Shown here: piece by piece, positions 6,038 through 28,818 of the stretch
Layout of the letters: every line of letters starts with the position of its first letter
Numbering within the stretch: position 1 is the first letter of the stretch
NCBI RefSeq assembly: GCF_008641105.1
Contig: NZ_VTTI01000006.1
Location: forward strand, 238,139 to 302,138
Length of the DNA: 64,000 bases
Direction: 5' to 3'
DNA from: Halopseudomonas salina
GTDB lineage: Bacteria; Pseudomonadota; Gammaproteobacteria; Pseudomonadales; Pseudomonadaceae
Program-made: the position numbers and the translations under genes
The notes under the pieces: model-generated
What the model was told of the DNA's origin: nothing
Databases searched by the model: none
The model's input: only the letters and a program-made list of their open reading frames with translations

Positions 6038-6039
6038 GC

Positions 6040-6229: not shown

Positions 6230-6304
6230 GTGTATCGGCCGTTACCCAGCTTCCGACCCCATCGTCATTCCCGCGAACGCGGTAAACCATTTTGATTTTG
6301 AGTG

Positions 6305-7174: not shown

Positions 7175-7389
7175 GGTTCACCTCATGACATCAGCTGGGT
7201 TTTGTCACAGCTAACCTCATGCGGATGTCAGCGGCATTTCAGTTGCCTGCCGCTGATCGACTTTCACCTAACTGTCACGCTGTATCCTTGCTCCAATCAC
7301 TGCTTCCTTGATCAGGATCAACAGCTGGATGAGTGCAAATGGCTGATAGTGGTGAAGAGTTATCCACCCCAACCACAGAGGCTGTCTGC

Positions 7390-7653: not shown

Positions 7654-7690
7654 GTTTCCCCGGGCCAGGCGGTTGTCTGGCTCGACACGC

Positions 7691-7830
7691 CTGGCCGAGA
7701 TGGAACTCGACCACTCACAGGATGCCCCTCCCGGCCTGTGCCTTTTCTTTCACGCCACGCTGCAATTGCTCAGGCTGGCGATGGATTTTCCATGAAGTCC
7801 GGTACCTGGGAATTGTCGAGTTCCACCTCG
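7691..7830. repeat. Separated palindromic repeat arms, degenerate copy 5
   Basis: A right-arm sequence (GGCCGAGATGGAACTCGACC) is at about 7691-7710 and a left-arm sequence (TTGTCGAGTTCCACCTCGAC) at about 7812-7831, about 100 bases apart and in the opposite order to the other copies. Each arm is a partial palindrome by itself. The gap 7654-7952 separates convergent genes (DUF465 and rmlD); apart from these arms I see no gene in it, and a short open frame across it has no protein-like features. Confidence 0.6.
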
Positions 7831-7952
7831 ACAGCAGCGCCAGCAGAGCTCACCCCGACCGAACCGGGACTCGGATGCTCGCGGGCGCCTCTCATATTCA
7901 AAACGTAGGACCCCGGTCAGCACTCCTTCGGCCCGCGCGCTCCTTCCCCAGA

Positions 7953-8834: not shown

Positions 8835-9373
8835 CTGGCGTGTTTTGCCAGGTCAGCGAGTGACGGCAGCGCCAGATCCTTGGCTGAAAGCAGAGGCTCC
8901 GTAATGGGCCACTGAATGTTCAGATCAGGGTCGCTCCACAGCACCCCGCCTTCATCCTCGGGGTAATACAGGTCGGTGCACTTGTATTCGAAATCAGCCA
9001 CCTCACTCAGTACGCAGAATCCGTGGGCATAACCCGGTGGGATCCACATCTGGCGATGGTTCTCGTCTGATAGCGTAACGCCGACGTACTGACCGAAGCT
9101 AGGGGAGGCGGGGTCGATGTCTGCGGCAACATCAAATATCGAGCCTCGGCTGGCACGTACGAGTTTCCCCTGGGGATGTAGGCGTTGGAAATGCAGACCG
9201 CGAAGCACGCCTTTTCTGGAACGCGAATGATTGTCCTGCACAAATGCCATATCCATTCCGGCGTCACGATAACGCTCGGCATGAAAGCTCTCCAGGAAGA
9301 AACCTCGCTCATCGCCAAATACGGTGGGTTCGATAATGAAAACGCCAGGCAGTGCTGTTTCAATAATCTTCAT
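8831..9373 (-). CDS. rmlC: dTDP-4-dehydrorhamnose 3,5-epimerase
   Basis: Cupin-fold epimerase of 180 residues converting dTDP-4-keto-6-deoxyglucose to dTDP-4-keto-L-rhamnose. [13 protein letters not shown], the RGLHFQ segment carrying the catalytic histidine, FDVAADID and [12 protein letters not shown] are family signatures. It overlaps rmlA upstream by 14 bases and rmlD downstream by 4, consistent with translational coupling in the rml operon. Confidence 0.95.
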
Positions 9374-10247
9374 TGCTCGGCCCCTGGGCGAGGACTTTAC
9401 TCAGATACTGGCCGTAGCCTGTTTTGCTGAGTGCCTGGGCCTGGGCTTTCAGTTTGTCAGCCGACAACCAGCCCTGATTGAACGCGATTTCCTCAAGACA
9501 GGCGACTTTCAAACCCTGGCGCGCTTCAATGGTCTGCACAAACTGGCCGGCATCCATCAGAGACTCATGGGTACCGGTGTCGAGCCAGGCAAATCCCCGT
9601 CCCAGCAGACTGACGTTGAGATCTCCTCGTTCCAGATAGGCACTGTTCACGTCGGTGATCTCCAGTTCGCCGCGCGGTGATGGCTTGATGTTTCTGGCGA
9701 TTTCTATCACGTCGTTGTCGTAAAAATACAGACCGGTCACCGCGTAGTTGGATTTGGGAACGGCTGGCTTTTCTTCGATAGAGATAGCACGGCCTTCAGC
9801 GTTGAAATCCACCACGCCGAAGCGTTCCGGGTCGCTCACGTGATAGCCGAACACAGTGGCACCCGAGCTGCGAGCTGCGGCCTCTTTGAGCATCGCGCTG
9901 AAGCCGTAACCATAGAAAATATTGTCGCCCAGGATCAGGCACACATTGCTGTCGCCGATAAAATGCTCACCAATCAGAAAGGCCTGGGCCAGGCCGTCTG
10001 GTGAAGGTTGCTCGGCATATTCCAGACTGATGCCAAAATCCGATCCATCACCGAGTAACTTGCGAAAGCTGGGCAGGTCCTCCGGCGTCGAGATGACCAG
10101 AATCTCCCGAATGCCGGCAAGCATCAGCACCGACAGGGGATAGTAGATCATCGGTTTGTCGTAGATCGGCAGCAGTTGCTTGGATACGCCCCGTGTAATC
10201 GGATGAAGGCGGGTGCCCGATCCGCCTGCCAGAATGATGCCTTTCAT
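9360..10247 (-). CDS. rmlA: Glucose-1-phosphate thymidylyltransferase
   Basis: Makes dTDP-glucose from dTTP and glucose-1-phosphate, the entry step of the rhamnose pathway. 295 residues, as usual for RmlA. The nucleotidyltransferase signature [11 protein letters not shown] with [17 protein letters not shown] is at the start; LGDNIFYG and [10 protein letters not shown] follow. The start is preceded by an AAGGA site that overlaps the end of rmlB. Second gene of the minus-strand operon. Confidence 0.95.
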
Positions 10248-10252
10248 ATTGG

Positions 10253-11353
10253 TTAATCCTTTTCCACTGTGGCGGTAGCATATTCTGCTGCCCCCAGACG
10301 GGCGAGCTGATAGTCACCACTGAGTACGCGCTGCCACCAGGCACGATTGATCAGATACCACTCTACGGTCTTGCGGATCCCGGAATCAAACGTTTCGCGC
10401 GGAACCCAGCCGAGCTCGCGCTGGATCTTTGACGCATCTATCGCATAGCGCTGATCGTGCCCTGGGCGGTCCTTCACAAAGGTGATCAGCTCTTTATAGC
10501 TTTCCAGGGTCGCGGGTCTCTCATCTGCGGCCAGTTCGTCGAGCAGCGTGCACAGCGTCTCGACCACTTCCAGATTGCGTTTCTCGTTGTGCCCGCCGAT
10601 GTTGTAAGTTTCTCCCACCCGGCCACGTGTCGCCACCTCCACCAGTGCGCGAGCGTGGTCCTCTACATAGAGCCAGTCCCGAATCTGCCCGCCATCGCCG
10701 TACACCGGCAGCGGCTTGCCCTGGATCGCGTTGAGGATCATGTGGGGAATCAGTTTCTCGGGGAAGTGGTAGGGTCCGTAGTTGTTCGAACAGTTGGTGA
10801 TAACAACAGGTAACCCGTAAGTGCGCTGCCAGGCTCGAACCAGATGGTCTGAGCTCGCCTTGGTCGCCGAGTAGGGTGAGCTGGGCGCATAGGGCGTTTC
10901 TTCTGTAAACAGCGCTTCGACGCCATGCAGATCGCCGTACACTTCATCAGTCGAGACGTGGTGGAAGCGGAAGGATGTCTGGCGAGACCTGTCCAGCGTT
11001 TGCCAGTAGGCTCGGGCAGCCTCAAGCAGACTGTAGGTGCCGACGATATTTGTCTGGATGAAATCGGATGGGCCATCAATCGACCTGTCTACGTGCGACT
11101 CAGCCGCCAGGTGCATCACCACATCTGGTTGGAATGCGGACATGAGCTTCGACATTGCCGCCTGGTCGCATATGTCCAATTGATGGAAGTTGTAGCGGTC
11201 ACTGCCCGCAAACTCGGCGAGTGAGTCGAGGTTGCCAGCGTAGGTAAGCTTGTCGACGTTGGCGACGACCTGCACAGTGTTCGCCAGAAGGTGGCGGATC
11301 ACGGCGGAGCCTATGAAGCCGGCGCCGCCGGTGATTAGGAATCTCAAACCCAT
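10253..11353 (-). CDS. rmlB: dTDP-glucose 4,6-dehydratase
   Basis: Extended SDR of 366 residues that converts dTDP-glucose to dTDP-4-keto-6-deoxyglucose. GGAGFIG near residue 9, the catalytic STDEVYGDL segment, [10 protein letters not shown] (YxxxK) and NCSNNYGPY are all present. The start was placed at 11353 because the fold begins there ([10 protein letters not shown]) behind a GAGGAGCAAGC ribosome-binding site; the open frame extends 58 codons further without family similarity. First gene of the rmlBACD-type operon, divergent from the plus-strand sugar operon with about 260 bases between them. Confidence 0.95.
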
Positions 11354-11391
11354 GCTTGCTCCTCGCATTCGGCACCCATCCGAAGGGGGTT

Positions 11392-11405
11392 CGCCGATAT
11401 TGGCG
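11392..11405. promoter_or_regulatory. Near-palindrome CGCCGATATTGGCG upstream of rmlB
   Basis: A 14-base near-palindrome about 40 bases upstream of the rmlB start, in the rmlB/rfbF divergent region. Its position would suit an operator for the rml operon, but no known regulator site is recognised and a chance occurrence cannot be excluded. Confidence 0.25.
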
Positions 11406-11521
11406 ATAGTTTGATACAGGGCTGTGGTGAGGGCAAATGGATCTATTTGCGCCTGATTGACCGGGGCTCGTTTGCGCCCCGTGTTGTCAGACAGAGGCGC
11501 TGATAGCAAAATGATTTCGAT

Positions 11522-11537
11522 TGGCAAGATTCTTGCT
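11522..11537 (+). promoter_or_regulatory. Sigma54 (RpoN) -24/-12 promoter for the sugar operon
   Basis: TTGGCAAGATTCTTGCT carries GG and GC exactly 12 bases apart with TTGC at -12, a good match to the sigma54 consensus TGGCAC-N5-TTGC. It lies about 80 bases upstream of the rfbF ATG in the right orientation. The same element precedes fliD, fleS, fliE, fliK and fliL in this window, so activation by the enhancer-binding proteins FleQ or FleR is the natural inference. A 5-bp hairpin (GCCAA/TTGGC, 11572-11585) lies in the leader. Confidence 0.75.
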
Positions 11538-11615
11538 CAGACTCGGGTAACGTCCTCTTAGTCAACAATATGCCAAGATGTTGGCGATCAGTAGCCTCAG
11601 AATAAGGATTGAACA

Positions 11616-12386
11616 ATGAAGGCAGTCATTCTGGCTGGTGGTCTCGGTACCAGAATCAGCGAGGAGTCGCATCTCAAGCCCAAGCCCATGATTGAGGTGG
11701 GTGGCAAGCCGATAATCTGGCACATCATGAAAATCTACCAGCATTACGGGATTACCGACTTCGTGATCTGCCTGGGTTACAAGGGATATGTCATCAAGGA
11801 GTATTTTGCCAACTACTTCCTGCATATGTCGGATGTGACCTTCGACATGTCGGAGAATCGCATGCACATTCACCAGCGGCATGCAGAACCCTGGCGTGTG
11901 ACATTGGTTGATACCGGTGAGATGTCCAGCACGGGCGGGCGTCTCAAGCGAGTGCGTGACTACCTGGGTGACGAGAGCTTCTGCTTTACCTACGGGGACG
12001 GTGTATCCAACATCAATATTCCTGAGCTAATCGCATTTCATCGTAGGCACGGCAAACTTGCGACTGTTACTGCTGTGCAGCCCCCGGGCCGTTTCGGTGC
12101 TCTGGATATTAAGGGTAACCAGGTCAATGGCTTTCAGGAAAAGCCGCTCGGTGATGGCGGCTGGATCAATGGCGGCTTTTTTGTGCTGGAACCAGCGGCA
12201 CTCGACTATATCGCTGATGACAGCACAACCTGGGAGTTCGAGCCCATGCGCCAGCTGGCCAGCGATGGTGAGCTGATGTGCCATTTTCATCGGGGCTTCT
12301 GGCAGCCCATGGATACGCTGCGTGACCGCAATTTTCTGGAAGAGCGCTGGGCCAGTGGCAACGCGGAGTGGCGCTTATGGGAGTGA
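11616..12386 (+). CDS. rfbF: Glucose-1-phosphate cytidylyltransferase
   Basis: Makes CDP-glucose from CTP and glucose-1-phosphate, the entry to CDP-3,6-dideoxyhexoses and related sugars. 256 residues, the RfbF length. [18 protein letters not shown] with [14 protein letters not shown] is the RfbF signature; [10 protein letters not shown] and [13 protein letters not shown] follow. AAGGA ribosome-binding site. It is the first gene of the plus-strand sugar operon and overlaps rfbG by about 10 bases. Confidence 0.95.
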
Positions 12387-13444
12387 ACACTGATTTCTGG
12401 ACTGATCGGCGGGTGCTGTTGACTGGTCATACGGGTTTCAAGGGCAGTTGGCTGGCCATCTGGCTGCGGAGCCTCGGCGCCGAGGTATACGGTATTGCCC
12501 TGGCTCCTGAAAACGAACCCTCACTGTGGAGCACCGCAGGTCTTGCAAGTTGTGTGGATGGCAGTTTTACCGACATACGCGATCAATCAGCGCTGACCGA
12601 CAAGGTGCTGGCGTTTGCGCCGGAGATTGTCTTCCACCTGGCGGCGCAACCGCTGGTACGTGCCTCCTACCGTGATCCGGTAGAAACCTATTCGACCAAT
12701 GTCATGGGCACAGTGCATCTGCTGGAAGCATTGCGCCAAACCGAGTCGGTCAAGGCCATCGTCGTGGTAACCACAGACAAGTGCTACGAGAATCAGGAAT
12801 GGCAATGGCCCTACCGCGAGACCGATCGACTTGGCGGATTCGACCCCTATAGCAACTCCAAAGCCTGCGCAGAACTGGTATGTGCGAGCTACCGCGATGC
12901 GTTTTTTACTCCAGCGGGAGTGGCACTGGCAACAGCCCGCGCGGGCAACGTAATAGGCGGAGGCGACTGGGGTGCGGAACGGCTGCTGCCAGATGTGCTG
13001 CGTGCCTGGGACGCGGGTGAGGAACTGACCTTGCGCTACCCCGGGGCCACCCGTCCGTGGCAACATGTGCTGGAGCCCCTGAGCGGTTATTTGAAGCTGG
13101 CGGAGTATTTGCTGGCTGTGGGGACGAGCGGTCCCAGCGCCTGGAACTTCGGACCGGACAATGACAGTGTTGTCAGCGTGGAGTCGGTGGTGGCTCGAAT
13201 GGCAGCGCTCTGGACGTACGATCAAGCACGTTGGCGATGCGTCGAGGCCAGTCAACCGCATGAAGCCGGAGTGCTTGCGCTGGACTCGTCCCGTGCCCGT
13301 AGTCAGCTGGCCTGGCGCCCGCACTGGACTCTCGACATGGCACTGCAGCGAACGCTCGACTGGCACAGCGCCTGGCGCAAGGGTGATGACTTGCAGGCGC
13401 TCTGCCTTCAACAGATAGCCCTCCATCAAGGCGAGTCAGTATGA
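12377..13444 (+). CDS. rfbG: CDP-glucose 4,6-dehydratase
   Basis: Extended SDR of 355 residues forming CDP-4-keto-6-deoxyglucose. The motif [10 protein letters not shown] is diagnostic of Rfb[24 protein letters not shown] (YxxxK) and [12 protein letters not shown] support it. The ATG at 12377 was taken; a GTG at 12368 or 12383 is possible. It overlaps rfbF upstream and rfbH downstream (ATGA at 13441), so the three are translationally coupled. Confidence 0.95.
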
Positions 13445-14763
13445 GTGATGCCCGCAAGCAGCAATTGCGTGAAGAAATAGCGATAAAAGTGAAGGAGTAT
13501 GCCGAGCTCAGCCTGGCGCCCACACCGTTTATTCCCGGCAGCTCGCTGGTGCCGCCCTCGGGGAAGGTGATCGGTGCTGGCGAGCTACAGATGATGACTG
13601 AGGCTGTGCTGGATGGCTGGCTGACCACCGGGCGTTTTAATGACGCCTTTGAGAAACGTCTGGCCAAATACCTCGGACGACGCAGCGTGTTGACCACCAA
13701 CTCTGGCTCGTCGGCCAACCTGCTGGCGTTTTCGGCATTGACTTCACCGCGCCTGGGCGAGAGGGCGATTGTTCCCGGTGATGAGGTTATCGCCGTTGCT
13801 GCGGGCTTTCCAACTACGGTAAATCCGATTATTCAGTGCGGTGCGGTGCCGGTCTTTGTGGATGTTGATCTGGTGACCTGCAATATTGATCCGGCACTGA
13901 TCGAGGCGGCCATATCGCCGCGTACCAAGGCGATAATGCTGGCTCATACCTTGGGCAATCCCTTTGACCTTGGCGTGGTCCGGGCGTTGTGTGACAAGTA
14001 CCGGCTGTGGCTGGTCGAGGATTGTTGCGATGCCCTGGGCGCCACCTATAATGGCCGAATGGTGGGCTCCTTCGGAGACATTGGCACCTTGAGCTTTTAT
14101 CCGGCGCACCACATCACCATGGGAGAGGGAGGTGCCGTCTTTACCGATAAGCCGTTGCTCAAACGTATCATGGAGTCCTTCCGCGACTGGGGACGCGACT
14201 GCTACTGTCCGCCTGGAGAAGACAATACCTGCGGGAAGCGCTTCGGCTGGCAACTGGGCGGATTGCCCGAAGGCTATGACCACAAATACACCTACGCACA
14301 TCTGGGCTACAACCTGAAGATCACGGATATGCAGGCGGCCTGCGCTTTGGCGCAAATGGACCAGGTGGATGATTTCATCACGGCGCGCAAGCGCAATTTC
14401 GCTTGGCTACATGAGCGACTGAGCGCCAGCAGCGACTATCTGATTCTGCCCGAGGCGACGCCCAACAGTGATCCGTCCTGGTTCGGCTTTCCGCTCACGT
14501 TGCGTGATGGGGAGCGCCATCAGCGTGTCGACCTGCTCCGTTTTCTTGATGCCCAGGGCGTCGGAACTCGCTTGCTGTTCGCCGGTAACCTGGTCCGTCA
14601 GCCTTACATGCAGGGTCGCAATTTTCGTGTGGCCGGATCGCTTCCGGTAACCGAGAAGGTTATGCGCGACACCTTTTGGGTAGGCGTCTGGCCTGGTCTC
14701 AGCGAGGAGCATCTGGAGCACATTGCCAGCAGCATAGAAACCTTTTTCGCGAGGATCATCTGA
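13441..14763 (+). CDS. rfbH: CDP-4-keto-6-deoxyglucose 3-dehydratase (E1)
   Basis: PMP-dependent, [2Fe-2S]-containing dehydratase of 440 residues that removes the C3 hydroxyl of CDP-4-keto-6-deoxyglucose. The feature that separates E1 from aminotransferases is visible: the PLP lysine is replaced by histidine (PAHHITMGEGG, His223/224). The iron-sulfur cysteines are present at about 195/196 and in DCYCPPGEDNTCGKRF (254, 256, 264). E1 normally works with an iron-sulfur flavin reductase (E3, AscD/DdhD), and no such gene is in the window. The product would be CDP-4-keto-3,6-dideoxyglucose, the acceptor used by YerE-type enzymes. Confidence 0.93.
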   Translation: MSDARKQQLREEIAIKVKEYAELSLAPTPFIPGSSLVPPSGKVIGAGELQMMTEAVLDGWLTTGRFNDAFEKRLAKYLGRRSVLTTNSGSSANLLAFSALTSPRLGERAIVPGDEVIAVAAGFPTTVNPIIQCGAVPVFVDVDLVTCNIDPALIEAAISPRTKAIMLAHTLGNPFDLGVVRALCDKYRLWLVEDCCDALGATYNGRMVGSFGDIGTLSFYPAHHITMGEGGAVFTDKPLLKRIMESFRDWGRDCYCPPGEDNTCGKRFGWQLGGLPEGYDHKYTYAHLGYNLKITDMQAACALAQMDQVDDFITARKRNFAWLHERLSASSDYLILPEATPNSDPSWFGFPLTLRDGERHQRVDLLRFLDAQGVGTRLLFAGNLVRQPYMQGRNFRVAGSLPVTEKVMRDTFWVGVWPGLSEEHLEHIASSIETFFARII

Positions 14764-15458
14764 TGCGCGCCTATGTGCTGTGTGGTGGCCTGGGCACGCG
14801 TTTGCAGTCTGTGACAAAGGGTGGACAGAAAGCGGTGGTAGATGTTCAGGGCGAGCCCTTTCTGCTACTGGTATTGAAGGAGCTCAGGGCGGCCGGGATT
14901 GAGGAAGTGGTGCTCTGTGCCGGACATCGGGCAGATCAGTTGCAAAGCCTGCTTGAGTCCCTGGCCAAGCGAGCCGAATTGCGCCTGCACTTGGTGGTGG
15001 AGGAATCACCGCTGGGTACCGGGGGAGCTTTGCTGCATGCGCTGCAGTACTGGCCGGTTGATGAGCCTTATCTAGTCCTCAATGCCGATACCTACCTGAG
15101 CAGCGAGGCCTTTTCCTTGCTTGCTGATGGCAAGCGTAATTTGATTCTGGCCGCCGATGTTGCGGAGCGTACGCGTTACGGTAGCCTGTGTATCAATGAC
15201 GACGGGCTGGTCCTTGCCTTGTGCGAGAAGGGCAGCGCAGGCGCTGGGCCGGTCAATGCCGGTGTCTACTGTTTTACTGCTGACGCGCTGGCTGCGGAGC
15301 ACCCGCGTGCCTGCTCGATGGAACTGGATATCCTGCCCGGGCTGATCGAACGCGAGCAGTTGTTCGCCGTTCACTACGACGGCCCCTTTGTCGATATCGG
15401 CACGCCATCCTCTCTGGCTGCCTTCACACAATCAGAGCAATGGAGTCCGTCGCGATGA
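14763..15458 (+). CDS. HddC-like sugar-1-phosphate nucleotidyltransferase
   Basis: 231 residues with the nucleotidyltransferase signature GGLGTRLQSVTKGGQKAVV, LNADTYL and a terminal VDIGTPSSL. Closest in character to HddC (D-glycero-alpha-D-manno-heptose-1-phosphate guanylyltransferase) and short RmlA-like proteins. It starts at the ATG overlapping the rfbH stop (TGATG) and ends overlapping the CBS-kinase start (ATGA). Next to a heptose-kinase-like GHMP kinase it probably activates the kinase product; the nucleotide (GTP likely) and sugar are not known. Confidence 0.75.
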   Translation: MRAYVLCGGLGTRLQSVTKGGQKAVVDVQGEPFLLLVLKELRAAGIEEVVLCAGHRADQLQSLLESLAKRAELRLHLVVEESPLGTGGALLHALQYWPVDEPYLVLNADTYLSSEAFSLLADGKRNLILAADVAERTRYGSLCINDDGLVLALCEKGSAGAGPVNAGVYCFTADALAAEHPRACSMELDILPGLIEREQLFAVHYDGPFVDIGTPSSLAAFTQSEQWSPSR

Positions 15459-16819
15459 GCCGCCTATTGGAAACGCTCACGGTAGGGTCCGAGCAATCTA
15501 TCCTCGATGCGGTCAAGTGCATCGAATCGGGTGATTTGCAGATCGCTTTCGTCGTCGAGTCGGACCAGCGGTTGGTGGGGGTGGTGACCAACGGCGACGT
15601 GCGGCGCTATTTGTTGCAGGGCGGCGATACCAAGCTGCCGGTGGTTGCCTGCATGAACAGCAACTTCCGTGCAGTTGAGGTCGGGGCGACGCGCGAACAG
15701 TTACTGAAAACCTTCGACCTCGGCTTCAATGCTCTGCCTGGGCTGGATGCGCAAGGTCGTCTACAAGAAATCTACACCCGCCAGATGACGGCGAGCCCTG
15801 AAGTGCCTGTACTGGCGCGCGCCCGCGCACCGGTGCGCATGAGCTTTTGTGGTGGTGGGGCGGATTTGACCTATTTCTTTGTTGATCATCCTGCAGCCGT
15901 ACTGAGTTGTACGGTGGGTCTGTATGCGCACGCCACCCTGGTCCCACGGGATGACGCCAGCGTGCATATCTTTTCCGAAGATCTGGGATGTGAAGAACAC
16001 TACGATAGCTTGGCCCAGTTGCTAGTGAGCGAAAACAAGAGCCTGCTCGGCACCATCGTTTCGGTGATTCGCCCTGCTTACGGCTTTGATCTCTATCTGC
16101 GCTCGGATTTTCCGGTGGGATCTGGGTTGGGCGGCTCATCTGCAGCCACCACGGCAATCATTGCCGCTTTCAACGAGCTGCGGCAGGATCGCTGGAATAC
16201 CTATGAAATTGCCGAGCTGGCGTTTCAGGCTGAACGTTTGTGCTTCGGCATTGCTGGGGGTTGGCAGGACCAGTATGCGTCAGCTTTCGGCGGTTTTAAT
16301 CTTATTGAGTTCGAAAATAAGCGCAATCTGGTACACCCGATTCGCCTCGAAGACGCGGCCCGTTTCGAGCTGGAAGCTTGCCTGGTGCTCTGCGACACCG
16401 GCCTTGTTCATAATTCGGGGCAACTGCACGAAAGGCAGCGCCAAGAGATGGAAGCGGAGTTGTCGCAAACTGATCTGCTGCGCGAAAGTGTGACGCTCTG
16501 CCGGCGCATGCATCGGCACCTGATACGCTGTGAACTCCACGACTTCGGTTTGTGTCTGCACGAGGCCTGGATGCTGAAGAAGCAGTTTTCGTCTGCAGTG
16601 AGCGACGCCAAACTGGATGAAATCTATGCCATCGCTCAAGCGGCAGGTGCGCTTGGTGGCAAGTTGCTTGGCGCCGGAGCCGGCGGTTTCTTCCTGTTTT
16701 ATGTGCAGCCTCAGCATCGACAGGCGGTGGTCCGTGCGGTGAATGAACTGGGCTGTGCGACAACCAATTTCCGATTTGAATCGAGTGGCGTGACTTCATG
16801 GCGAACGAAAATACAATGA
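15455..16819 (+). CDS. CBS-pair / GHMP sugar kinase fusion (HddA-like)
   Basis: 454 residues. Residues about 5-118 form a CBS-domain pair (FVVESDQRLVGVVTNGDVRR, FNALPGLDAQGRLQEI); residues about 125-454 are a GHMP kinase with APVRMSFCGGGADLTYF, the ATP-binding loop PVGSGLGGSSAATTA, GGWQDQYASAFGGFNLIEF and the C-terminal GGKLLGAGAGGFFLF. The kinase resembles HddA, which phosphorylates heptose-7-phosphate at C1. HddA does not normally carry CBS domains; a CBS pair is better known on PtmE-type nucleotidyltransferases of flagellin-sugar clusters. No gmhA or gmhB is in view, so the substrate may not be a heptose. Confidence 0.8.
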   Translation: MSRLLETLTVGSEQSILDAVKCIESGDLQIAFVVESDQRLVGVVTNGDVRRYLLQGGDTKLPVVACMNSNFRAVEVGATREQLLKTFDLGFNALPGLDAQGRLQEIYTRQMTASPEVPVLARARAPVRMSFCGGGADLTYFFVDHPAAVLSCTVGLYAHATLVPRDDASVHIFSEDLGCEEHYDSLAQLLVSENKSLLGTIVSVIRPAYGFDLYLRSDFPVGSGLGGSSAATTAIIAAFNELRQDRWNTYEIAELAFQAERLCFGIAGGWQDQYASAFGGFNLIEFENKRNLVHPIRLEDAARFELEACLVLCDTGLVHNSGQLHERQRQEMEAELSQTDLLRESVTLCRRMHRHLIRCELHDFGLCLHEAWMLKKQFSSAVSDAKLDEIYAIAQAAGALGGKLLGAGAGGFFLFYVQPQHRQAVVRAVNELGCATTNFRFESSGVTSWRTKIQ

Positions 16820-18711
16820 CTCCCGCAGTGATGGATGTCGGTGGCTTCACTGTCGGCGGCGACCAGGTCTTCGTGATTGCCGAGGTGGGTAATAATCACA
16901 ACGGCTCGCTGCCGCTGGCCAAAGAGCTGGTCGACGCCGCCATTGCCGTAGGTGCCGACTGCGTCAAGTTCCAGCTGCGTGACCGGGCCGCGCTGTATCG
17001 TAGCAAGGCAGATGGCTCCCGGGCTGAGGACCTGGGTGTGGAGTACATCCAGGATCTGCTGGACAAGGTAGAACTGACGCTGGCGGAGCATCGTGATCTG
17101 CGCGACTATTGCGCCAGCAAGGACATGCTTTATCTCTGCACACCCTGGGATGAGTCCAGCGTCGACGCGCTTGCCGACTTTGATCTCCCGGCCGTCAAGC
17201 TGGCCTCGGCAGACCTTTGCAACCCCTATCTGATCGCCAAGGCAGCCTCCCTGGGCAAGCCCATGATTCTCTCCACGGGTATGTCATTCGAGCATGAGGT
17301 CGTTGCTGCTATCGCTCAGTTGAGTGAGCTGGATGTTCCCTTCGCATTGTTGCACTGCAACAGTGCCTATCCAGCCCCGGAAACCGATATCCAGCTCAAC
17401 TACATCGGGCGCATGCGTGAACTGCACGGCTTGATCGGCTACTCCGGCCATGAGCGGGGTATCGCCATTTCGCTAGCCGCAGTGGCGCTGGGTGCCAAGC
17501 TGATCGAGCGACACATCACGCTCGATCGCGGTATGGAAGGTCCGGACCACCTGGCCAGCCTTGAGCCTGCAGAATTCAGACAGCTGGTGGAGGGTGTGCG
17601 TCAGTTGGAAAAGGCATTGCCCTGCCCGGGCATGCGGCGCCAGGTCAGTCAGGGCGAGCTGCTGAATCGCGAAAACCTTGGCAAGAGCGTGATTGCCGTG
17701 ACTGCGATCAAATCTGGCGATGTATTCACCCAGGACAAGCTGCGCGTCGCGAGTCCCGGTCAGGGCCTGGCACCTTATCGCCTGGCAGACCTGCTTGGCC
17801 GGAGCGCCTGTCGTGACATTGAGCAGGGAGATTTTCTGTTTGAAAGCGATATTGACGGCGCCGAGCAGAAGACCTTGAAATTTGATTTGCCGGTTCGTTG
17901 GGGCGTTCCTGTGCGCTACCATGATTTTCTGCAGTATCATTCGCGCATAGCACCGGATCTATACGAGTTTCATCTGTCCTATCGTGATTTGTCGGTTGAC
18001 CCCGAGCCCTATCTCAAGCCGGTGGCATGCAGCCGTCTGGTCGTGCATGCGCCTGAGCTGTTCGAGAACAGTGAGCTGCTTGACCTGGTGGCAGATGACG
18101 AAGCGTACCGCCAGCGTTCAATCGCCAACCTGCAACGTGTTGTCGATGCGACGCAACGTATTGCCGCCTTCTTTCCTCAGGCTGACGCGCAATTGATCGT
18201 GGCCAATGTGGGTGGTTTCTCCGCCGACGCTCCTCTTCCCGTCGCGCGGCGCGAGATGCTGTACCAGCGTTTCAGCGAGTCCTGCGCGCAAATTGATTTT
18301 GGCCCCACTGAACTGATCCCACAGAACATGGCGCCGTTCCCGTGGCACTTCGGCGGACAGCGGCATCAGAATATCTTCATGATGCCGGACGAACTGGCGC
18401 AGAAGGCAGAGGCCCTTGGTTTGCGCCTGTGTCTGGACCTGTCCCATCTGCAGATGACCTGCTTTCACTTTGAGCTGGATTTTCAGGCCGCGTTGCGGCG
18501 CCTGCTGCCGTTGTCCGCGCATCTGCACGTGGCGGATGCCAAGGGCACCAATGGCGAGGGTGTGTTGATGGGTACTGGAGATGTCGACTGGCCGGCGACC
18601 TGGGCGCAGATCAGGGAGGCAGATGCCAGCTTCATTCCCGAAGTCTGGCAGGGCCACAAGGACCACGGTGCGGGTTTCTGGGCGGCCCTGGTCTACTTGC
18701 AATCATTATGA
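16798..18711 (+). CDS. NeuB-like synthase with SAF domain fused to a xylose-isomerase-like TIM barrel
   Basis: 637 residues. Residues about 20-285 are a NeuB-type condensing domain (VIAEVGNNHNGSLPLAKE, GADCVKFQLRD, YSGHERGIAISLAA, IERHITLDR...GPDH), which joins PEP to an aldose in sialic/legionaminic/pseudaminic acid synthesis. Residues about 295-355 are the SAF/antifreeze-like lid (KSVIAVTAIKSGDVF, GRSACRDIEQGD). Residues about 360-637 form a second, AP-endonuclease-2/sugar-isomerase TIM barrel with probable metal ligands in LIPQNM, CLDLSHLQM, HLHVADAKG and FIPEVWQGH. Standard NeuB proteins are about 350 residues, so the fusion is unusual. No CMP-sugar synthetase (NeuA) is in the window. Confidence 0.85.
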   Translation: MANENTMTPAVMDVGGFTVGGDQVFVIAEVGNNHNGSLPLAKELVDAAIAVGADCVKFQLRDRAALYRSKADGSRAEDLGVEYIQDLLDKVELTLAEHRDLRDYCASKDMLYLCTPWDESSVDALADFDLPAVKLASADLCNPYLIAKAASLGKPMILSTGMSFEHEVVAAIAQLSELDVPFALLHCNSAYPAPETDIQLNYIGRMRELHGLIGYSGHERGIAISLAAVALGAKLIERHITLDRGMEGPDHLASLEPAEFRQLVEGVRQLEKALPCPGMRRQVSQGELLNRENLGKSVIAVTAIKSGDVFTQDKLRVASPGQGLAPYRLADLLGRSACRDIEQGDFLFESDIDGAEQKTLKFDLPVRWGVPVRYHDFLQYHSRIAPDLYEFHLSYRDLSVDPEPYLKPVACSRLVVHAPELFENSELLDLVADDEAYRQRSIANLQRVVDATQRIAAFFPQADAQLIVANVGGFSADAPLPVARREMLYQRFSESCAQIDFGPTELIPQNMAPFPWHFGGQRHQNIFMMPDELAQKAEALGLRLCLDLSHLQMTCFHFELDFQAALRRLLPLSAHLHVADAKGTNGEGVLMGTGDVDWPATWAQIREADASFIPEVWQGHKDHGAGFWAALVYLQSL

Positions 18712-18721
18712 GGCTCCATCT

Positions 18722-19912
18722 ATGAATACCGACGATCTCACCCAGCGTTTGGAGTCGTTGCTATGCGAGCCGTTGGAGTCCATCCGCGAGCGCCAGGCCA
18801 CTACTCTGGAGCGCCTGATAGGAGGCCTCGACCGTCCCTTCGCACTGTTTGGAGCCAGCCACCTTGGTCGCAAGGCTCTGATGGTTCTGAAGGAAAAGGG
18901 CTTGGCCCCTTGCGCCCTCATGGATAACAATCCGGCACTGTGGGGGACCTATATCGAATCGGTGCCGGTGTATAGCCCCGCGCAGTTAGTCGATCAATGG
19001 AGCGGCGAGCTGCCAGCAGTGATATGTACCATCTGGAGTGGCCATATCCACGATTGCATGGAAGATCGACTTAAACCGCTGCGTGAGTTGGGGTTTAAAC
19101 GCATCGCACTGTTTGGGCACCTGGCTTGGCGGTATCCGCAGGATTTCTTGCCACACTATTGTATGGATTTGCCAGAGTACGTGGTGCCGGAGGCTGATGC
19201 TATCCGCCGCGCCTTCGCTCTGCTGGGAGATGAGACTTCGCGTCGGCTGTTCGTTGACCATGTCGAGTGGCGGCTGCATCTGGATCACGATCTGCTGCCG
19301 GTCTCTTCGCCGCTGCAGATTTACTTTGACGCCCGGTTCAGTACCGATTTCGCCGAGGAGGTAGTGTTCGACCTGGGCGCCTTCAACGGCGATACAATGG
19401 AGGGCTATCTGGCCAGCGGTCGCGGCTACCGCGAGTATCATTGCTTCGAGCCAGTGGCACGTAACTTCGCCGAGCTGCAGACTTGCCTGAAGCGACTGGC
19501 GCGCCCCGACCTGTATGTCCACCGCCTGGCGGTCGGCGACAACGTTGGCGGAGTGCTGATTGAAGCGACTAACGGCCCCTCGTCCAGGGTTGGTATGGGT
19601 GACGAGCGGGTGCCCATGACTACTTTGGACCACCTTGCGGCCCAGGGCATGCTCCCTACTTTCATCAAGATCGACATCGAAGGCCACGAACCTCAATGTC
19701 TCGCCGGTGGCCGTCGGCTGATTGCCGAGCTCCAGCCGCTGATCGCGGTGAGCGTCTACCACGAACAGAACCACCTATGGCGCATTCTGCTGCAGCTGCA
19801 CGAATACCACGAGGGCTACCGCTACAGTCTTTGCCCCCATGTCAGTGATGGTTGGGACCTGGTTCTCTACGCGGTTCCTGCTGATCGTATCCCCGCCCCA
19901 TTACCGGTATGA
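18722..19912 (+). CDS. FkbM-family methyltransferase with N-terminal Rossmann-like domain
   Basis: 396 residues from the ATG at 18722, behind a GAGG site 11 bases after the previous stop. Residues about 35-140 form a nucleotide-binding-like domain (FALFGASHLGRKAL, ALMDNNPALWG). Residues about 215-395 form the FkbM SAM-dependent methyltransferase (VVFDLGAFNGDTMEGYL, CFEPVARNF, IKIDIEGHEP). FkbM enzymes usually O-methylate sugars or polyketides. In this cluster it probably methylates a glycan sugar. The N-terminal domain resembles the C-terminal domain of the pyruvyltransferase encoded at 27392. Confidence 0.85.
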   Translation: MNTDDLTQRLESLLCEPLESIRERQATTLERLIGGLDRPFALFGASHLGRKALMVLKEKGLAPCALMDNNPALWGTYIESVPVYSPAQLVDQWSGELPAVICTIWSGHIHDCMEDRLKPLRELGFKRIALFGHLAWRYPQDFLPHYCMDLPEYVVPEADAIRRAFALLGDETSRRLFVDHVEWRLHLDHDLLPVSSPLQIYFDARFSTDFAEEVVFDLGAFNGDTMEGYLASGRGYREYHCFEPVARNFAELQTCLKRLARPDLYVHRLAVGDNVGGVLIEATNGPSSRVGMGDERVPMTTLDHLAAQGMLPTFIKIDIEGHEPQCLAGGRRLIAELQPLIAVSVYHEQNHLWRILLQLHEYHEGYRYSLCPHVSDGWDLVLYAVPADRIPAPLPV

Positions 19913-21714
19913 GTACCAATTCCATGCGTGTTGCCGATTACATCTTTGATTTCATCGCCAGACAGGGCGTTAACCACATTTTTTTCCTGCCTGGTGGTGG
20001 TGCCATGCATTTGAACAATGCGCTGTATCGCCGGACTGATCTGACGCCTGTGAGCATGTTGCACGAACAGGGCGCCGCTATTGCTGCGGAGGGCTACGCG
20101 CGTACGTCTGGTGGCCTCGGGGTATGCCTGGTGACCTCCGGGCCGGGGGCCACCAACGCCATGACGGGGCTGGCCGGGGCGTGGTTCGAGTCGACCCCGA
20201 CGCTCTTCGTGTCCGGGCAGGTCAAACGTGCGGACCTGAAAGGCAACACTGGCCTGCGCCAACTGGGTACTCAGGAACTCGACATTGTCAGTGTCGCTGG
20301 GCCGCTGAGCAAATACGCGGTCTGCCTGCTGGATCCGTTGCGCGTGCGCTATGAATTAGAGAAAGCGCTGCATCTGATGCTCAGTGGCCGCAAGGGACCG
20401 GCCTGGATTGACGTGCCTTTGGATGTGCAGGCAACCGAGATAGATCCTCAGGAACTGGAGGGGTTCGTGCCGGAACAGGCAGAAGCCTCGCTTTGGCCCG
20501 AGGAGGCCGCACTGGCGCGTCTGATGGGCCGGCTGCGGGCTGCCCAGCGCCCGGTACTGTTAGTGGGCAATGGCGTGCATGCCGCCGGGGCGGAAGTTGA
20601 GCTGCGCCAGTTGATCGAGGATCTGGGTATCCCGACGCTGACGACCTGGATTGGTGCCGACCTGCTGGAGCATGGGCATCCGCTTTACGTCGGACGGTGC
20701 GGCACGGTGGCACCTCGCGGACCGAACTTTGCAGTGCAGAATGCCGACCTGGTGATCGCCATCGGCTGTCGGATGGATTTTTCCATCACCGGCTTCAATC
20801 GCGCCCATTTTGCTCGCGCAGCTGAGATAGTGGTGGTTGATATCGATCCGGCAGAGATACTGAAGCTGGGCGACATGCCGGATGAGAGTTTTGTCTGTGA
20901 TGCAAAAGAGTTCATTAAGCAATTGCACAGTATCAATGACGGCGGGTCGCTGGACTGCGAGGCATGGCGTGCACGCTGCGCTGCCTGGAAGGAGGCTTAT
21001 GCGGTGGTGTTGCCCGAGTATCGGCAGGCGGGCGCCTACGTCAATACCTATGTATTTACCGAGCTGCTCTCTGAGTTGATGTCCGAGGGAGACCAGATCA
21101 TCCCAGGTAGTTCTGGCGCGGCGCTGGACACCTTCTGGCTGGCGCTGCGCCTGAAGCGGGGGCAACGTGCGGTGGCCACTGGGGGGCTGGGCTCCATGGG
21201 TTATGGTCTGCCGGCGTCCATCGGCGGCTGCCTGGGCAGCGGCGGGCGTCGCACGGTTTCAATTGATGGTGATGGCGGCTTTGTGATGAATATTCAGGAG
21301 CTGGAAGTGGTCCGGCGCCTGAAGCTGCCGATTAAGTATTTTGTTCTCAACAACAATGGTTATGCTTCGATTCGGGCATCTCAGGGTGGGTATTTCAAAC
21401 AGATCATAGGCTGCGATCCGGCCTCTGGCTTGACCTTGCCAGATATCTCGGCGCTGGCTGCAGCTTTCGGTCTGCCGGTTATGCAGGTAGATGGCACCGG
21501 TGATTTGCGCTCTACCATTGAGCAGGCTCTGGCGCTCGACGGGCCTGTGGTCTGTGAGGTCATGGTTGAGCCTGATCAGGCAATTGGTCCACGGATAACG
21601 TCGCGAATCGAACATAACGGCGTCATGGTTTCAAGTCCTCTGGAAGACCTTTTCCCCTTTCTGGAGCGCGATGAGCTGCGCGCCAACATGTTGATTCCCC
21701 TGGTGGAGGAGTGA
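19909..21714 (+). CDS. ThDP-dependent acetolactate-synthase-like enzyme (YerE-like candidate)
   Basis: 601 residues with the full ThDP-enzyme layout: Pyr domain with catalytic glutamate in MLHEQGAAIAAEGYAR (Glu53), central domain, and PP domain with GDGGFVMNIQELE...LNNNGYASIRASQ (GDG to NN motif). Sugar-cluster homologues include YerE, a ThDP/FAD enzyme that adds a two-carbon unit from pyruvate to C4 of CDP-4-keto-3,6-dideoxyglucose in yersiniose synthesis. RfbF-G-H in the same operon would make that acceptor, so a branched-sugar role is a reasonable inference. A true acetolactate synthase is less likely: there is no ilvN and no branched-chain amino-acid context. Confidence 0.8.
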   Translation: MSTNSMRVADYIFDFIARQGVNHIFFLPGGGAMHLNNALYRRTDLTPVSMLHEQGAAIAAEGYARTSGGLGVCLVTSGPGATNAMTGLAGAWFESTPTLFVSGQVKRADLKGNTGLRQLGTQELDIVSVAGPLSKYAVCLLDPLRVRYELEKALHLMLSGRKGPAWIDVPLDVQATEIDPQELEGFVPEQAEASLWPEEAALARLMGRLRAAQRPVLLVGNGVHAAGAEVELRQLIEDLGIPTLTTWIGADLLEHGHPLYVGRCGTVAPRGPNFAVQNADLVIAIGCRMDFSITGFNRAHFARAAEIVVVDIDPAEILKLGDMPDESFVCDAKEFIKQLHSINDGGSLDCEAWRARCAAWKEAYAVVLPEYRQAGAYVNTYVFTELLSELMSEGDQIIPGSSGAALDTFWLALRLKRGQRAVATGGLGSMGYGLPASIGGCLGSGGRRTVSIDGDGGFVMNIQELEVVRRLKLPIKYFVLNNNGYASIRASQGGYFKQIIGCDPASGLTLPDISALAAAFGLPVMQVDGTGDLRSTIEQALALDGPVVCEVMVEPDQAIGPRITSRIEHNGVMVSSPLEDLFPFLERDELRANMLIPLVEE

Positions 21715-21715: not shown

Positions 21716-22603
21716 ATGACCGACTACCTGGCAGCTTATGCCGAGGGCGGCTTGTATACCATGCAAGGCCGACTCAGCGAGCCTGAAGAGGGCCGCTTTC
21801 AATCCTTCCCGCGTAGCCAGTGGCGTTTGGAAATCGAACGTGCCGCGCAGATCGGGCTGCGGGGTATCGAATGGATCTACGACCTTTACGGAGAAGGCAG
21901 CAACCCGATAGAAACCCAATCCGGACGTCGAGAGCTCGGCGGACTGCTGGAGCAGCATGGTCTTGCTGTGGTGTCCGTCTGTGCCGACTACTTCATGGAT
22001 CGTCCACTTTTGCGTTGCAGTCCCGAGGAGCACGGGGCCTTGATTGACCGGCTGGAGTGGCTGCTCGGCGTGTGTGCCGAGCTGGGGGTCGGGCGGGTGG
22101 TGTTGCCATTCGTGGATGCGTCCAGCATCCGCAATGCTGCGGAGCGCGCCCAGGTGGTTGCGGCGCTGCGGCAAGTGCTGCCAAGCGCCGAGCGTCAGGG
22201 CGTGGAACTGCACCTGGAAACCGATCTCGGCCCGGAGGCGTTCCGCCAGCTGCTTGCGGAGCTTGAACACCCGCTGATTTGCGTCAACTACGATGCGGGC
22301 AACAGCGCCTCGCTCGGGTACCTACCCGAGGAGGAGTTCGCGGCCTATGGTGCGCGGGTCGGTAGTGTCCACATCAAGGACCGTCAACGGGGCGCCGGCA
22401 CGGTGGAGCTGGGGCAGGGCGATACGGACTTTCGCAGCTTGCGCGAGCAACTGCTCAAATACGACTATCACGGTGATTTTGTGCTTCAGGTCGCTCGTGG
22501 CGAGGCTGGGGATGAGCCGCGCTGGCTTTCAGAAATGGCGCATCTCGCGGCTGACTGGTTGCGTGGTTGCGCCCTGAATGATGAAAAGAGAGATATAACG
22601 TGA
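21716..22603 (+). CDS. Xylose-isomerase-like TIM-barrel sugar isomerase/epimerase
   Basis: 295 residues of the AP-endonuclease-2/sugar-phosphate isomerase superfamily. Probable metal ligands lie in LHLETDLG, CVNYDAGNSASLGY, SVHIKDRQRG and the final VLQVARGE segment. It starts one base after the ThDP gene stop and overlaps the next gene by 4 bases. It is similar in type to the TIM barrel fused to the NeuB-like protein, so the operon encodes two such barrels. Substrate unknown. Confidence 0.75.
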   Translation: MTDYLAAYAEGGLYTMQGRLSEPEEGRFQSFPRSQWRLEIERAAQIGLRGIEWIYDLYGEGSNPIETQSGRRELGGLLEQHGLAVVSVCADYFMDRPLLRCSPEEHGALIDRLEWLLGVCAELGVGRVVLPFVDASSIRNAAERAQVVAALRQVLPSAERQGVELHLETDLGPEAFRQLLAELEHPLICVNYDAGNSASLGYLPEEEFAAYGARVGSVHIKDRQRGAGTVELGQGDTDFRSLREQLLKYDYHGDFVLQVARGEAGDEPRWLSEMAHLAADWLRGCALNDEKRDIT

Positions 22604-23661
22604 AGATTCTGTTCTGTGGACTGGGGGGGATTGGTCAGCGCCATCTGCGTAACCTGCGCCTGTTGCTGGGTGATGCGCTGGAGGTGCACGCCTATCGTGT
22701 GCGGGGCCAGCGCATCAAGTTGCTGGACAACCTGACAATCGATGAAGGTGCGGATCTGGAAAAGGATTACGCCATCCAGGTACACCATGAGCTGGCTGAG
22801 GCGCTGGCGCAACAGCCAGCGGCGGTCTTTATCTGCAATCCCAACGCGCTACACGTGCCGGTAGCACTGGAGTGTGTGCGTGCCGGTGTTCCCGTGTTCA
22901 TGGAAAAGCCGTTGGCCAGTGATCTGACAGATGTTGACCAGCTGCTTGCCGAGGTAGAGAAGCGCAAGCTGCTGTTCCATGTTGGCTACAACTTCCGTTT
23001 TCATCCCGGGTTACAGCGGCTCAAGACCTTGCTCGAAAAGGGATTCTTTGGGCGGCTTGTCAGCGTGCGCTCGGAGATCGGAGAGTATCTGCCTAACTGG
23101 CACCGCTATGAGGATTATCGGCAGATGTATGCCGCTCGGGCCGATCAGGGCGGTGGCGTCATCCTCTCGCAGATTCACGAAATGGATCTGATCTACTGGT
23201 ATTTCGGTCTACCTCGCAGCCTGGTCTGCCATGGTGGCCATCTCAGCGGGTTGGAAATCGATGTGGAAGACACTGCTTCATCCTTGATGCGTTTCGAGGG
23301 TGACAATGGTTGTTTTCCTCTCATGCTGCATCAGGATTTTGTGCAACGTCCACCGTCGCGCAGATTCAAGATCGTCGGCGATGCTGGCTGCGCCGAAATG
23401 GATCTGATTGCCAACTGCTTGTATGTCTACGATGAGGTGGGAGAACTCTGCGAGCAGAACGACTTTGCCGGTTTTAACCGCAATGACATGTTTCTGGCGC
23501 AGGCCAGGCATTTTCTCGATTGTCTGACTAACGGCACCAAGCCCGTGGTGGATATCACCGAAGGTGTGCAGAGTCTGCGTATGGCACTGGCTGCACGGCG
23601 CTCGTTGCGCGAAGGGTGCGAGGTGCAATTGAGTGAGGTGAACATCCATGGCCAGCGTTGA
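22600..23661 (+). CDS. Gfo/Idh/MocA-family NAD(P)-dependent oxidoreductase
   Basis: 353 residues. The N-terminal Rossmann motif is FCGLGGIGQRHLRN, followed by FICNPNALHVP and the family catalytic motif EKPLA (VFMEKPLAS). The C-terminal alpha/beta domain includes GGGVILSQIHEMDLIYW, where the His serves catalysis. Members reduce or oxidise keto/hydroxy groups on (nucleotide) sugars. It overlaps its upstream neighbour by 4 bases and its downstream neighbour by 14. The step in this pathway is unknown. Confidence 0.85.
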   Translation: MKILFCGLGGIGQRHLRNLRLLLGDALEVHAYRVRGQRIKLLDNLTIDEGADLEKDYAIQVHHELAEALAQQPAAVFICNPNALHVPVALECVRAGVPVFMEKPLASDLTDVDQLLAEVEKRKLLFHVGYNFRFHPGLQRLKTLLEKGFFGRLVSVRSEIGEYLPNWHRYEDYRQMYAARADQGGGVILSQIHEMDLIYWYFGLPRSLVCHGGHLSGLEIDVEDTASSLMRFEGDNGCFPLMLHQDFVQRPPSRRFKIVGDAGCAEMDLIANCLYVYDEVGELCEQNDFAGFNRNDMFLAQARHFLDCLTNGTKPVVDITEGVQSLRMALAARRSLREGCEVQLSEVNIHGQR

Positions 23662-24478
23662 AACGCTGTTTCGCCTGGATGACCGGGTGGCGTTGATTAC
23701 CGGCGGCGCAGGTTTACTGGGCTATCAGCATGCAGCCACCATTGCGGCGCTGGGCGGCTTGCCGGTGCTGCTTGATATCAACGCCGCCGAGCTGATGAAA
23801 AACGCCGCGAGGCTTGAAGCTGAAACGGGATACAAGGCGCTGACGCTGGTCGCCGATATCACGGACGTGGACGCGCTACGCTCGGCGGATGAGCAAGTGC
23901 AGGCACATCATGGGCGATTGGATATTCTGATCAATAATGCCGCGCGTAATCCCAAGGTAGAAAAGGCTGGTGATCAGGACTTTTCCCGTCTGGAACACTT
24001 TCCCTGGGAACAGTGGCGTCTGGATCTGGATGTTGGCCTGGGTGGAGCCTTCAACTGCGCCAAGGTATTTGGTTCGCAGATGGCGCGGCAGGGTAGTGGG
24101 GTGATCATCAATATCGCCTCCGATCTTGGCGTTATTGCGCCGGACCAGCGCCTCTATCGTGTCGAGGGCCTTGAACCGGATAACCAACCGGTCAAGCCGG
24201 TGACTTACTCGGTGGTCAAGCATGGCCTGATTGGCTTGACCAAGTATCTGGCGACCTATTGGTGTGAGCAGGGCATACGCTGCAATGCGCTGTCGCCGGG
24301 TGGTGTCTATGCCGGCCAGAACGACGTGTTCGTCGCCAAGCTGACGCAGCTTATACCCCTTGGCCGCATGGCTGGCGCTGATGAATATCGCGGCGCTATC
24401 GCGTTCCTCTGCTCGGACGCCTCCTCTTATATGAATGGTGCCAACCTGGTAATCGACGGGGGTCGCAGCACATGGTGA
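23648..24478 (+). CDS. SDR-family oxidoreductase (PtmA-like)
   Basis: 276 residues, classical SDR: GGAGLLG cofactor loop, NNAAR, NIASDLG (catalytic Ser) and YSVVK (YxxxK), ending IDGGRSTW. The long insertion around PDQRLYRVEGLEPDNQPVKPVTYSVVK is typical of PtmA/flagellin-modification-type SDRs. It overlaps the Gfo/Idh gene by 14 bases and the following methyltransferase by 7. A redox role in making the operon's unusual sugar is likely; substrate unknown. Confidence 0.83.
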   Translation: MASVETLFRLDDRVALITGGAGLLGYQHAATIAALGGLPVLLDINAAELMKNAARLEAETGYKALTLVADITDVDALRSADEQVQAHHGRLDILINNAARNPKVEKAGDQDFSRLEHFPWEQWRLDLDVGLGGAFNCAKVFGSQMARQGSGVIINIASDLGVIAPDQRLYRVEGLEPDNQPVKPVTYSVVKHGLIGLTKYLATYWCEQGIRCNALSPGGVYAGQNDVFVAKLTQLIPLGRMAGADEYRGAIAFLCSDASSYMNGANLVIDGGRSTW

Positions 24479-27380: not shown

Positions 27381-27391
27381 AGGTTTGTCCC

Positions 27392-28696: not shown

Positions 28697-28818
28697 GCAA
28701 GTTGGCGGTATAGAACAATTGCCTGACTGGTATGGGCACGTATTGGCTGAAGGCATCTGGCTTGTGGCGAAGTCACTTGCAGGGATGTCTTTCCAGGTAC
28801 AAAAGAAGGAAGTTGGGA

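Follow-up and report, generated by a model that had tools for sequence, protein, structure and literature searches.

Which sugar is made by an operon that places a thiamine diphosphate (ThDP)-dependent enzyme among genes for a cytidine diphosphate (CDP)-linked 3,6-dideoxysugar and then runs up to a flagellin gene, and how large a branch would that enzyme attach? The question is raised by a 64-kb stretch of Halopseudomonas salina DNA (hereafter the window, meaning the whole stretch analyzed), in which the closest species-named homologues are from Halopseudomonas. A first-pass annotation had proposed the two-carbon branch of yersiniose. The analysis described below reveals that the ThDP enzyme belongs among the YerE-like lyases, that its gene and rfbFGH are paired with a gene of the sialic acid synthase (NeuB) family in relatives, and that such copies are linked to flagellin. 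On balance, we lean, by a small step, toward the view that the product of the operon is a CDP-3,6-dideoxysugar with a long branch, destined for flagellin.

Class of the ThDP enzyme

The operon, wholly on the plus strand, opens with rfbF (glucose-1-phosphate cytidylyltransferase; 11616..12386; TIGR02623, 473 bits, cut-off 300), rfbG (CDP-glucose 4,6-dehydratase; 12368..13444; TIGR02622, 488 bits, cut-off 278), and rfbH (CDP-4-keto-6-deoxyglucose 3-dehydrase, E1; 13441..14763; NF011936, 725 bits, cut-off 423), all three over their NCBIfam equivalog cut-offs. RfbH has His-His at the pyridoxal phosphate-lysine site of aminotransferases and cysteines with the iron-sulfur spacing C-X57-C-X1-C-X7-C (C196, C254, C256, and C264); the His-for-Lys exchange and the Cys spacing are marks of an E1 dehydrase. 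The gene for the 601-residue ThDP enzyme, the proposed branching enzyme, follows at 19909..21714. The open reading frames (ORFs) were found exactly at these coordinates, and from rfbF to a 1715-residue glycosyltransferase each gap measures only −22 to +35 bases, which makes the operon credible; a further 241 bases precede fliC. The first-pass annotation was thus right in assigning rfbFGH and the ThDP enzyme to one operon at a flagellar locus; fliC (34121..35323, +; PF00669 and PF00700), encoding the proposed acceptor protein, is followed downstream by flaG, fliD, fliS, fleQ, a FleR-kind response regulator gene, and fliF.

The ThDP protein contains all three TPP_enzyme Pfam domains, the catalytic Glu53, a GDG motif at 454, and Arg117. 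Its best sequence match in PDB is 8rph (439 bits, against 275 bits for the best acetohydroxyacid synthase (AHAS), a plant protein); 8rph is the JanthE of Janthinobacterium sp. HH01, as named in the JanthE paper (PMC12188165). In a 65-row tree the query and JanthE form one clade (support 100/100), which adjoins the YerE-type proteins with joint support of 98/96, while five AHAS proteins, E. coli glyoxylate carboligase (Gcl), and Oxc fall apart from it. Approximately unbiased (AU) tests on a 35-row quick tree, applied to clades that were chosen with the first tree already in view, rejected a forced grouping of the query clade with AHAS (p = 1.6e-85) and with YerE (p = 1.9e-4). Arg at JanthE position 117, a clade signature defined in this analysis, occurs in 118 of 118 YerE-like rows and in none of the four E. 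coli references. Overall identity is a blunter guide: the query shares 37.4% with JanthE, 32.2% and 29.6% with two YerE proteins, and 27.7–32.6% with three AHAS proteins.

That the query is instead a metabolic enzyme, whether of the acetolactate synthase, the glyoxylate carboligase, or the oxalyl-CoA type, is scarcely credible; the bit scores, the tree, and the AU test with AHAS contradict it. The query scores 353.6 bits with TIGR00118 (acetolactate synthase IlvB; cut-off 538.35), lies under the cut-off of every NCBIfam model listed (25 of 54), and keeps Glu53 where E. coli Gcl has Val. The replacement of the catalytic Glu by Val is a mark of Gcl.

YerE itself was likewise rejected as an identity, given the separate clade, the AU test, the identity of 30–32%, and an operon in which E3, the partner reductase of RfbH, was not found. 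The query also has Thr at JanthE position 121, where YerE and AHAS have Phe. The YerE references are the proteins named from Yersinia spp. and P. simiae, with Y. pseudotuberculosis YerE lying outside the set. They are anchored by one locus (L163) with the local gene order E3-rfbF-rfbG-rfbH-ThDP, the protein of which is 69–70% identical to the Yersinia spp. proteins and 99% identical to that of P. simiae. Strain WCS417 is, we presume, P. simiae. According to the part of the report available, WCS417 carries homologues of ddhA-D, yerE, and yerF (PMC4509608). Judged by sequence, then, the protein belongs with the YerE-like lyases and is neither an acetolactate synthase nor YerE proper. The annotation of a YerE-type enzyme therefore holds for the sugar-branching type, not for YerE itself with its pyruvate-derived branch; since the enzyme is not YerE itself, a two-carbon branch is doubtful, and the earlier proposal was probably wrong on branch size.

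Keto-acid synthase genes and linkage to flagellin

The donor proposed here is suggested by a gene at 16798..18711 (+), between rfbH and the ThDP gene, which encodes a fusion of NeuB, a SAF domain, and a xylose-isomerase-like TIM barrel and is the candidate maker of a 2-keto acid. The fusion scores under the curated NeuB and PseI cut-offs (304.3 against 399.65 and 228.7 against 340.25 bits). Equivalents of E25, K53, T110, K129, S213, H215, E234, and H236, presumably the active site for condensing phosphoenolpyruvate (PEP), are kept in 27 of 27 NeuB-TIM proteins, and the position of Arg314, which we take to be the residue that reads the N-acetyl group and is tied to sialic acid, is Ser in 27 of 27 fusions and Ile, Val, or Phe in 18 of 18 NeuB-SAF(-cupin) relatives.

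Genomic neighbors were compared by profile searches of fetched stretches around the best 80 of 408 named loci, a keto-acid enzyme (NeuB or HMGL-type) being counted when it lay at most 6 kb from the ThDP gene. NeuB accompanies the ThDP gene in 38 of these loci, an HMGL-type protein in 22, and neither in 20; in 41 of the 80 the keto-acid enzyme is centered 1.3–2.7 kb upstream of the ThDP gene on the same strand. Two further samples were taken around a named Pseudomonas genome (G002), its class and family being read from the name as presumably Gammaproteobacteria and Pseudomonadaceae. The class sample (369 genomes; eight matches, one of them G002) gave NeuB 3, HMGL 2, and neither 2, one of these contig-cut, among the other seven. 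The family sample (398 genomes) held 27 with a YerE-like copy at E ≤ 1e-75. Of their loci, 21 were freshly fetched (NeuB 18, HMGL 1, neither 2; rfbH in all 21), and the other six (the named loci L001, L002, L005, L008, L011, and L012) all have NeuB. At least one of rfbF, rfbG, and rfbH is found in 55 of the 80 named loci, in many phyla, and in 6 of the 7 class and 21 of the 21 family loci. Twelve of the 21 family loci keep the order rfbF-rfbG-rfbH-nucleotidyltransferase-kinase-NeuB-TIM-ThDP, and two of these twelve, like the window, have FkbM genes before the ThDP gene; the ThDP proteins of the 12 fall in the clade of the window (75 and 88% identical) or in a second clade (47–50%).

The same genomes tie the NeuB-linked type to flagellin. 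The distance from ThDP gene to flagellin gene is less than 20 kb in 22 of the 27 genomes and 40–44 kb in two, and NeuB is present in all 24 of these flagellin-linked copies; in the remaining three (L131, L132, and L151), which have no NeuB, flagellin is on another contig or 1.8 Mb off. As controls, rfbH was found in 39 of the 398 genomes, 12 beyond the 27 with ThDP matches: six E3-rfbFGH-yerE loci, five E3-rfbFGH loci without a ThDP gene, and L159, a contig-cut copy of the same island whose 3.2-Mb genome has no ThDP match. At the 11 additional loci other than L159, neither NeuB nor HMGL was found in about 20 kb, and none shares a contig with a flagellin gene closer than 45 kb (three at 68–151 kb, eight on another contig). 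All 24 flagellar-type loci thus have NeuB, and none of the 14 other rfbH loci that are intact does (Fisher p = 1.0e-10, relatedness ignored).

A destination of the product in another surface glycan, with flagellin playing no part, would accord with the review of these enzymes (PMC12247030, available in part), where the YerE-like products mentioned by name belong to lipopolysaccharide (LPS) or other cell-surface sugars. It is quite improbable here, given the 241 bases between operon end and fliC and the placement of all 24 NeuB-linked family copies within 45 kb of flagellin on the same contig (22 of them within 20 kb), against none of the 11 other-type rfbH loci.

Where a donor is known, the neighboring gene fits it. 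According to the available part of the same review, YerE prefers pyruvate; ErwE makes no use of pyruvate and prefers longer functionalized donors, such as 4-hydroxy-2-oxo acids; and JanthE is among the YerE-like enzymes also accepting pyruvate (PMC12247030). JanthE accepts 4-hydroxy-2-oxovalerate, with benzaldehyde, and its physiological substrates were not identified by the authors (PMC12188165). In six fetched yerE-type loci, all ordered E3-rfbF-rfbG-rfbH-yerE, neither NeuB nor an HMGL/aldolase gene was found. L151 (G610:C21:140900-160800, 5085-16842), a Pseudomonas-family operon with E3, rfbFGH, and a yerE-type gene, also encodes an orthologue of JanthE (8rph, 1086 bits); close by are genes for an acetylating acetaldehyde dehydrogenase and for a 4-hydroxy-2-oxovalerate aldolase, each over its NCBIfam cut-off. 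This content suggests JanthE's natural donor; because the yerE-type gene shares the operon, the aldolase is not assignable with certainty to one ThDP gene.

These data bear on the yersiniose-type route, in which an acetyl unit from pyruvate would be added to CDP-4-keto-3,6-dideoxyglucose and NeuB would serve another residue of the flagellin glycan. YerE-like membership, the linkage to rfbFGH, and the use of pyruvate by JanthE and some other YerE-like enzymes (PMC12247030, in its available part) speak for this route. We nevertheless regard it as unlikely, since the grouping with YerE proper is rejected, the six yerE-type loci all have E3 and none has NeuB, and all 24 flagellar-type loci retain NeuB despite differing ThDP clades. 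Moreover, no transferase of the cytidine monophosphate (CMP) type that would partner NeuB was found among the island genes scanned, nor any match to PF02348 (CMP-sugar-acid transferase) within 100 kb of the ThDP gene on the same contig in the 24 flagellar-type genomes; elsewhere all 24 have a KdsB-like match, and eight have a second strong match, four on another contig. Thr for Phe at position 121 is weak evidence in the same direction.

Several further loci vary the theme. Two flagellin islands (L146 and L150) combine rfbFGH with a third YerE-like clade, 39–40% identical to the query, and have a NeuB-like gene 3′ of the ThDP gene (364 residues in L146) in place of the fusion. In Rhodoblastus acidophilus (L034, 1-20218), rfbGH, CBS-kinase, NeuB-TIM, short-chain dehydrogenase, YerE-like ThDP, and nucleotidyltransferase genes adjoin genes reading by eye as fliF and motB; the module may therefore be flagellar in Alphaproteobacteria too. 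Gut Clostridia loci (e.g., L021, L024, L026, L029, and L049) join a YerE-like gene to an HMGL-type protein, mostly with rfbFGH, and probably serve a different branched sugar. In L131, L132, L097, and P0127, where NeuB, HMGL, and E3 were not found, the ThDP gene lies 3′ of rfbFGH and of genes reading as an ATP-binding cassette transporter; the protein of L131 shares 73% identity with one from Trinickia caryophylli. The LPS of T. caryophylli is known for caryophyllose, and a link of L131-type genes to this sugar is worth testing.

Acceptor sugar and predicted route

The first-pass annotation had rfbFGH yield CDP-4-keto-3,6-dideoxyglucose. Its three enzyme identities stand, although RfbF, RfbG, and RfbH alone stop short of that intermediate, and the partner reductase RfbI/E3/DdhD is also needed; this gave no match in the window (tblastn with one E3; a two-sequence E3 profile). 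The 27 relatives' genomes gave, apart from G610's own E3, only ferredoxin-type reductases 28–35% identical. General reductases can stand in for E3 with some E1-type enzymes, such as SpnQ.

In the predicted route, CDP-4-keto-3,6-dideoxyglucose would arise through RfbF, RfbG, RfbH, and a reductase encoded elsewhere. Within the fusion, the TIM barrel would supply or epimerize an aldose or ketose, from which NeuB, by condensation with PEP, would make a 3-deoxy-2-keto acid. Decarboxylation of this keto acid by the YerE-like enzyme would leave an acyl carbanion, and its addition by the same enzyme at C4 of the CDP-keto-sugar would give a tertiary alcohol with a branch of more than two carbons. Completion of the sugar, in a presumed order of steps, would fall to reductases and to the FkbM and other methyltransferases; the large GT2 glycosyltransferase adjoining fliC might then attach it to flagellin, perhaps with rhamnose. 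To the core of this scheme, namely two sequential C–C bond-forming enzymes, with a polyhydroxylated 3-deoxy-2-keto acid coming from the NeuB-epimerase fusion and its acyl group being grafted by the YerE-like enzyme onto CDP-4-keto-3,6-dideoxyglucose, we would give an even chance.

Several points weigh against the long-branched sugar. Besides the choice of AU-tested clades mentioned above, the identity of B. subtilis IlvB (32.6%) matches the YerE level and is not far under that of JanthE, and Phe121 is kept in four NeuB-linked relatives, so that pocket residues are not strictly tied to donor class. Of the 20 named loci without either donor enzyme, 11 are uncut and nine contig-cut, and nine of the 20 carry rfb genes. 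The scheme offers no clear role for the kinase and nucleotidyltransferase encoded between rfbH and NeuB, and NeuB could serve another glycan residue. Finally, E3 was not found within about 9–10 kb at any of the 24 flagellar-type loci and is present in 12 of the 14 other rfbH loci, so that the acceptor may be something other than CDP-4-keto-3,6-dideoxyglucose. It could be another 4-keto sugar made in the island, such as the deoxythymidine diphosphate (dTDP)-4-keto-6-deoxyglucose of the rml pathway or an RfbH product left unreduced; rfbFGH would then lead to a separate 3,6-dideoxyhexose. Consistent with this possibility, rml genes lie next door in the window, high-identity rmlB occurs in L001, L133, and L159, and paratose-type rfbFGHS islands are predicted for Clostridium flagellins in the available part of a recent report (PMC13317340). 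A different acceptor nonetheless appears improbable to us, because the ThDP clade accompanies rfb genes across phyla and rmlB at 76–83% identity was found only in those three of the loci searched.

The remaining genes can be fitted around the predicted route. Between rfbH and the fusion lie a gene for an HddC/MurU-like sugar-1-phosphate nucleotidylyltransferase (14763..15458, +; PF00483; NF049965, 107 bits, under the cut-off of 300) and one for an HddA-like protein of CBS domain and GHMP kinase (15440..16819, +; Pfam; NF049969, 225 bits, under the cut-off of 600; PDB 4n3o, 195 bits). Because these two are similar to HddA and HddC, which act on heptoses, and L072 also has a SIS-domain protein reading like GmhA, a heptose-derived precursor is a possible guess. 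An FkbM-type methyltransferase with an N-terminal extension (18722..19912, +; TIGR01444, 62 bits, cut-off 37.7, scored on 18719-19912) precedes the ThDP gene. Behind it come a second xylose-isomerase-like TIM barrel (21716..22603, +; PF01261, 92 bits; weak UlaE epimerase match, E = 0.0014), a Gfo/Idh/MocA oxidoreductase (22600..23661, +; PF01408; IolG model, 108 bits, under the cut-off of 355), a short-chain dehydrogenase (23648..24478, +; 110 bits, under the cut-off of 350, with NF050062, the flagellin modification protein PtmA, which is not the best of the 203 such dehydrogenase models matched), an S-adenosylmethionine methyltransferase (24472..25341, +; PF13489), and an NAD-dependent epimerase/dehydratase (25343..26407, +; PF01370, 139 bits), which may be the side-chain ketoreductase and the ORF cluster of which is present in 24 of the 80 named loci. 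A second FkbM methyltransferase (26421..27380, +; PF05050), a polysaccharide pyruvyl transferase family protein (27392..28696, +; PF04230 on the longer ORF 27020-28696; no NCBIfam match), and the 1715-residue multi-domain glycosyltransferase (28732..33879, +; three PF00535 stretches), whose place directly 5′ of fliC suggests that it is the flagellin glycosyltransferase, complete the operon. The divergent upstream neighbor is rmlD-rmlC-rmlA-rmlB for dTDP-rhamnose (7953..11527, −; rmlC, TIGR01221, 251 bits; rmlD, PF04321; rmlA and rmlB named from sequence only). Another xylose-isomerase-like TIM barrel lies outside the operon at 225-1037 of the window.

Significance and comparison with known systems

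If the predicted route is correct, it would represent a new kind of flagellum decoration and, as far as searched, both the first case of a sialic-acid-synthase-family enzyme making the donor of a ThDP sugar-branching enzyme and the first flagellin sugar of a long-branched kind (about ten carbons or more). The available part of the review places YerE-like chemistry mainly in cell structures such as LPS and counts more than 200 predicted members, the vast majority without known sugar structure; its main text contains neither 'flagell' nor 'neub' (PMC12247030). A literature search joining flagellin, glycosylation, and acetolactate synthase gave nothing on this subject, judged by titles and the starts of abstracts. 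A flagellin island of this kind would extend YerE-like chemistry to protein glycosylation, and the keto-acid synthase beside a YerE-like gene would predict branch length across several phyla. Should this neighbor rule hold, orphan YerE-like enzymes would gain donor predictions, each assayable, and biocatalysis an enzyme set for large chiral tertiary alcohols.

The system is worth comparing with those already described. The ThDP enzyme differs from JanthE in having a GDG instead of a CDG motif, and its locus is flagellar, with a NeuB-epimerase neighbor in place of the pyruvate aldolase found beside the JanthE orthologue; a likeness to ErwE is drawn only through the available part of the review (PMC12247030). 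The ddhABCD-yerE-yerF yersiniose operon of Yersinia and P. simiae WCS417, the product of which is LPS in the available part of the report (PMC4509608), likewise joins rfbFGH-type genes to a ThDP lyase within one operon, and Arg117 is common to both lyases, whereas these fall in separate clades (30–32% identity), E3 is there and not here, and NeuB is here and not there. With the NeuB/PseI nonulosonic acid synthases of flagellin islands, the fusion shares the PEP-condensing site, the SAF domain, and the flagellar locus, but it is joined to a ketose-epimerase-like barrel, has lost Arg314, scores under the cut-offs, and has no CMP-transferase found nearby. Finally, flagellin islands with 3,6-dideoxyhexose genes have been predicted before, in a report on Clostridium (PMC13317340), in which, as far as the available part goes, the paratose islands contain the reductase RfbS and the main text lacks the word 'thiamine'; common to both systems is the placement of 3,6-dideoxyhexose genes at a flagellin locus.

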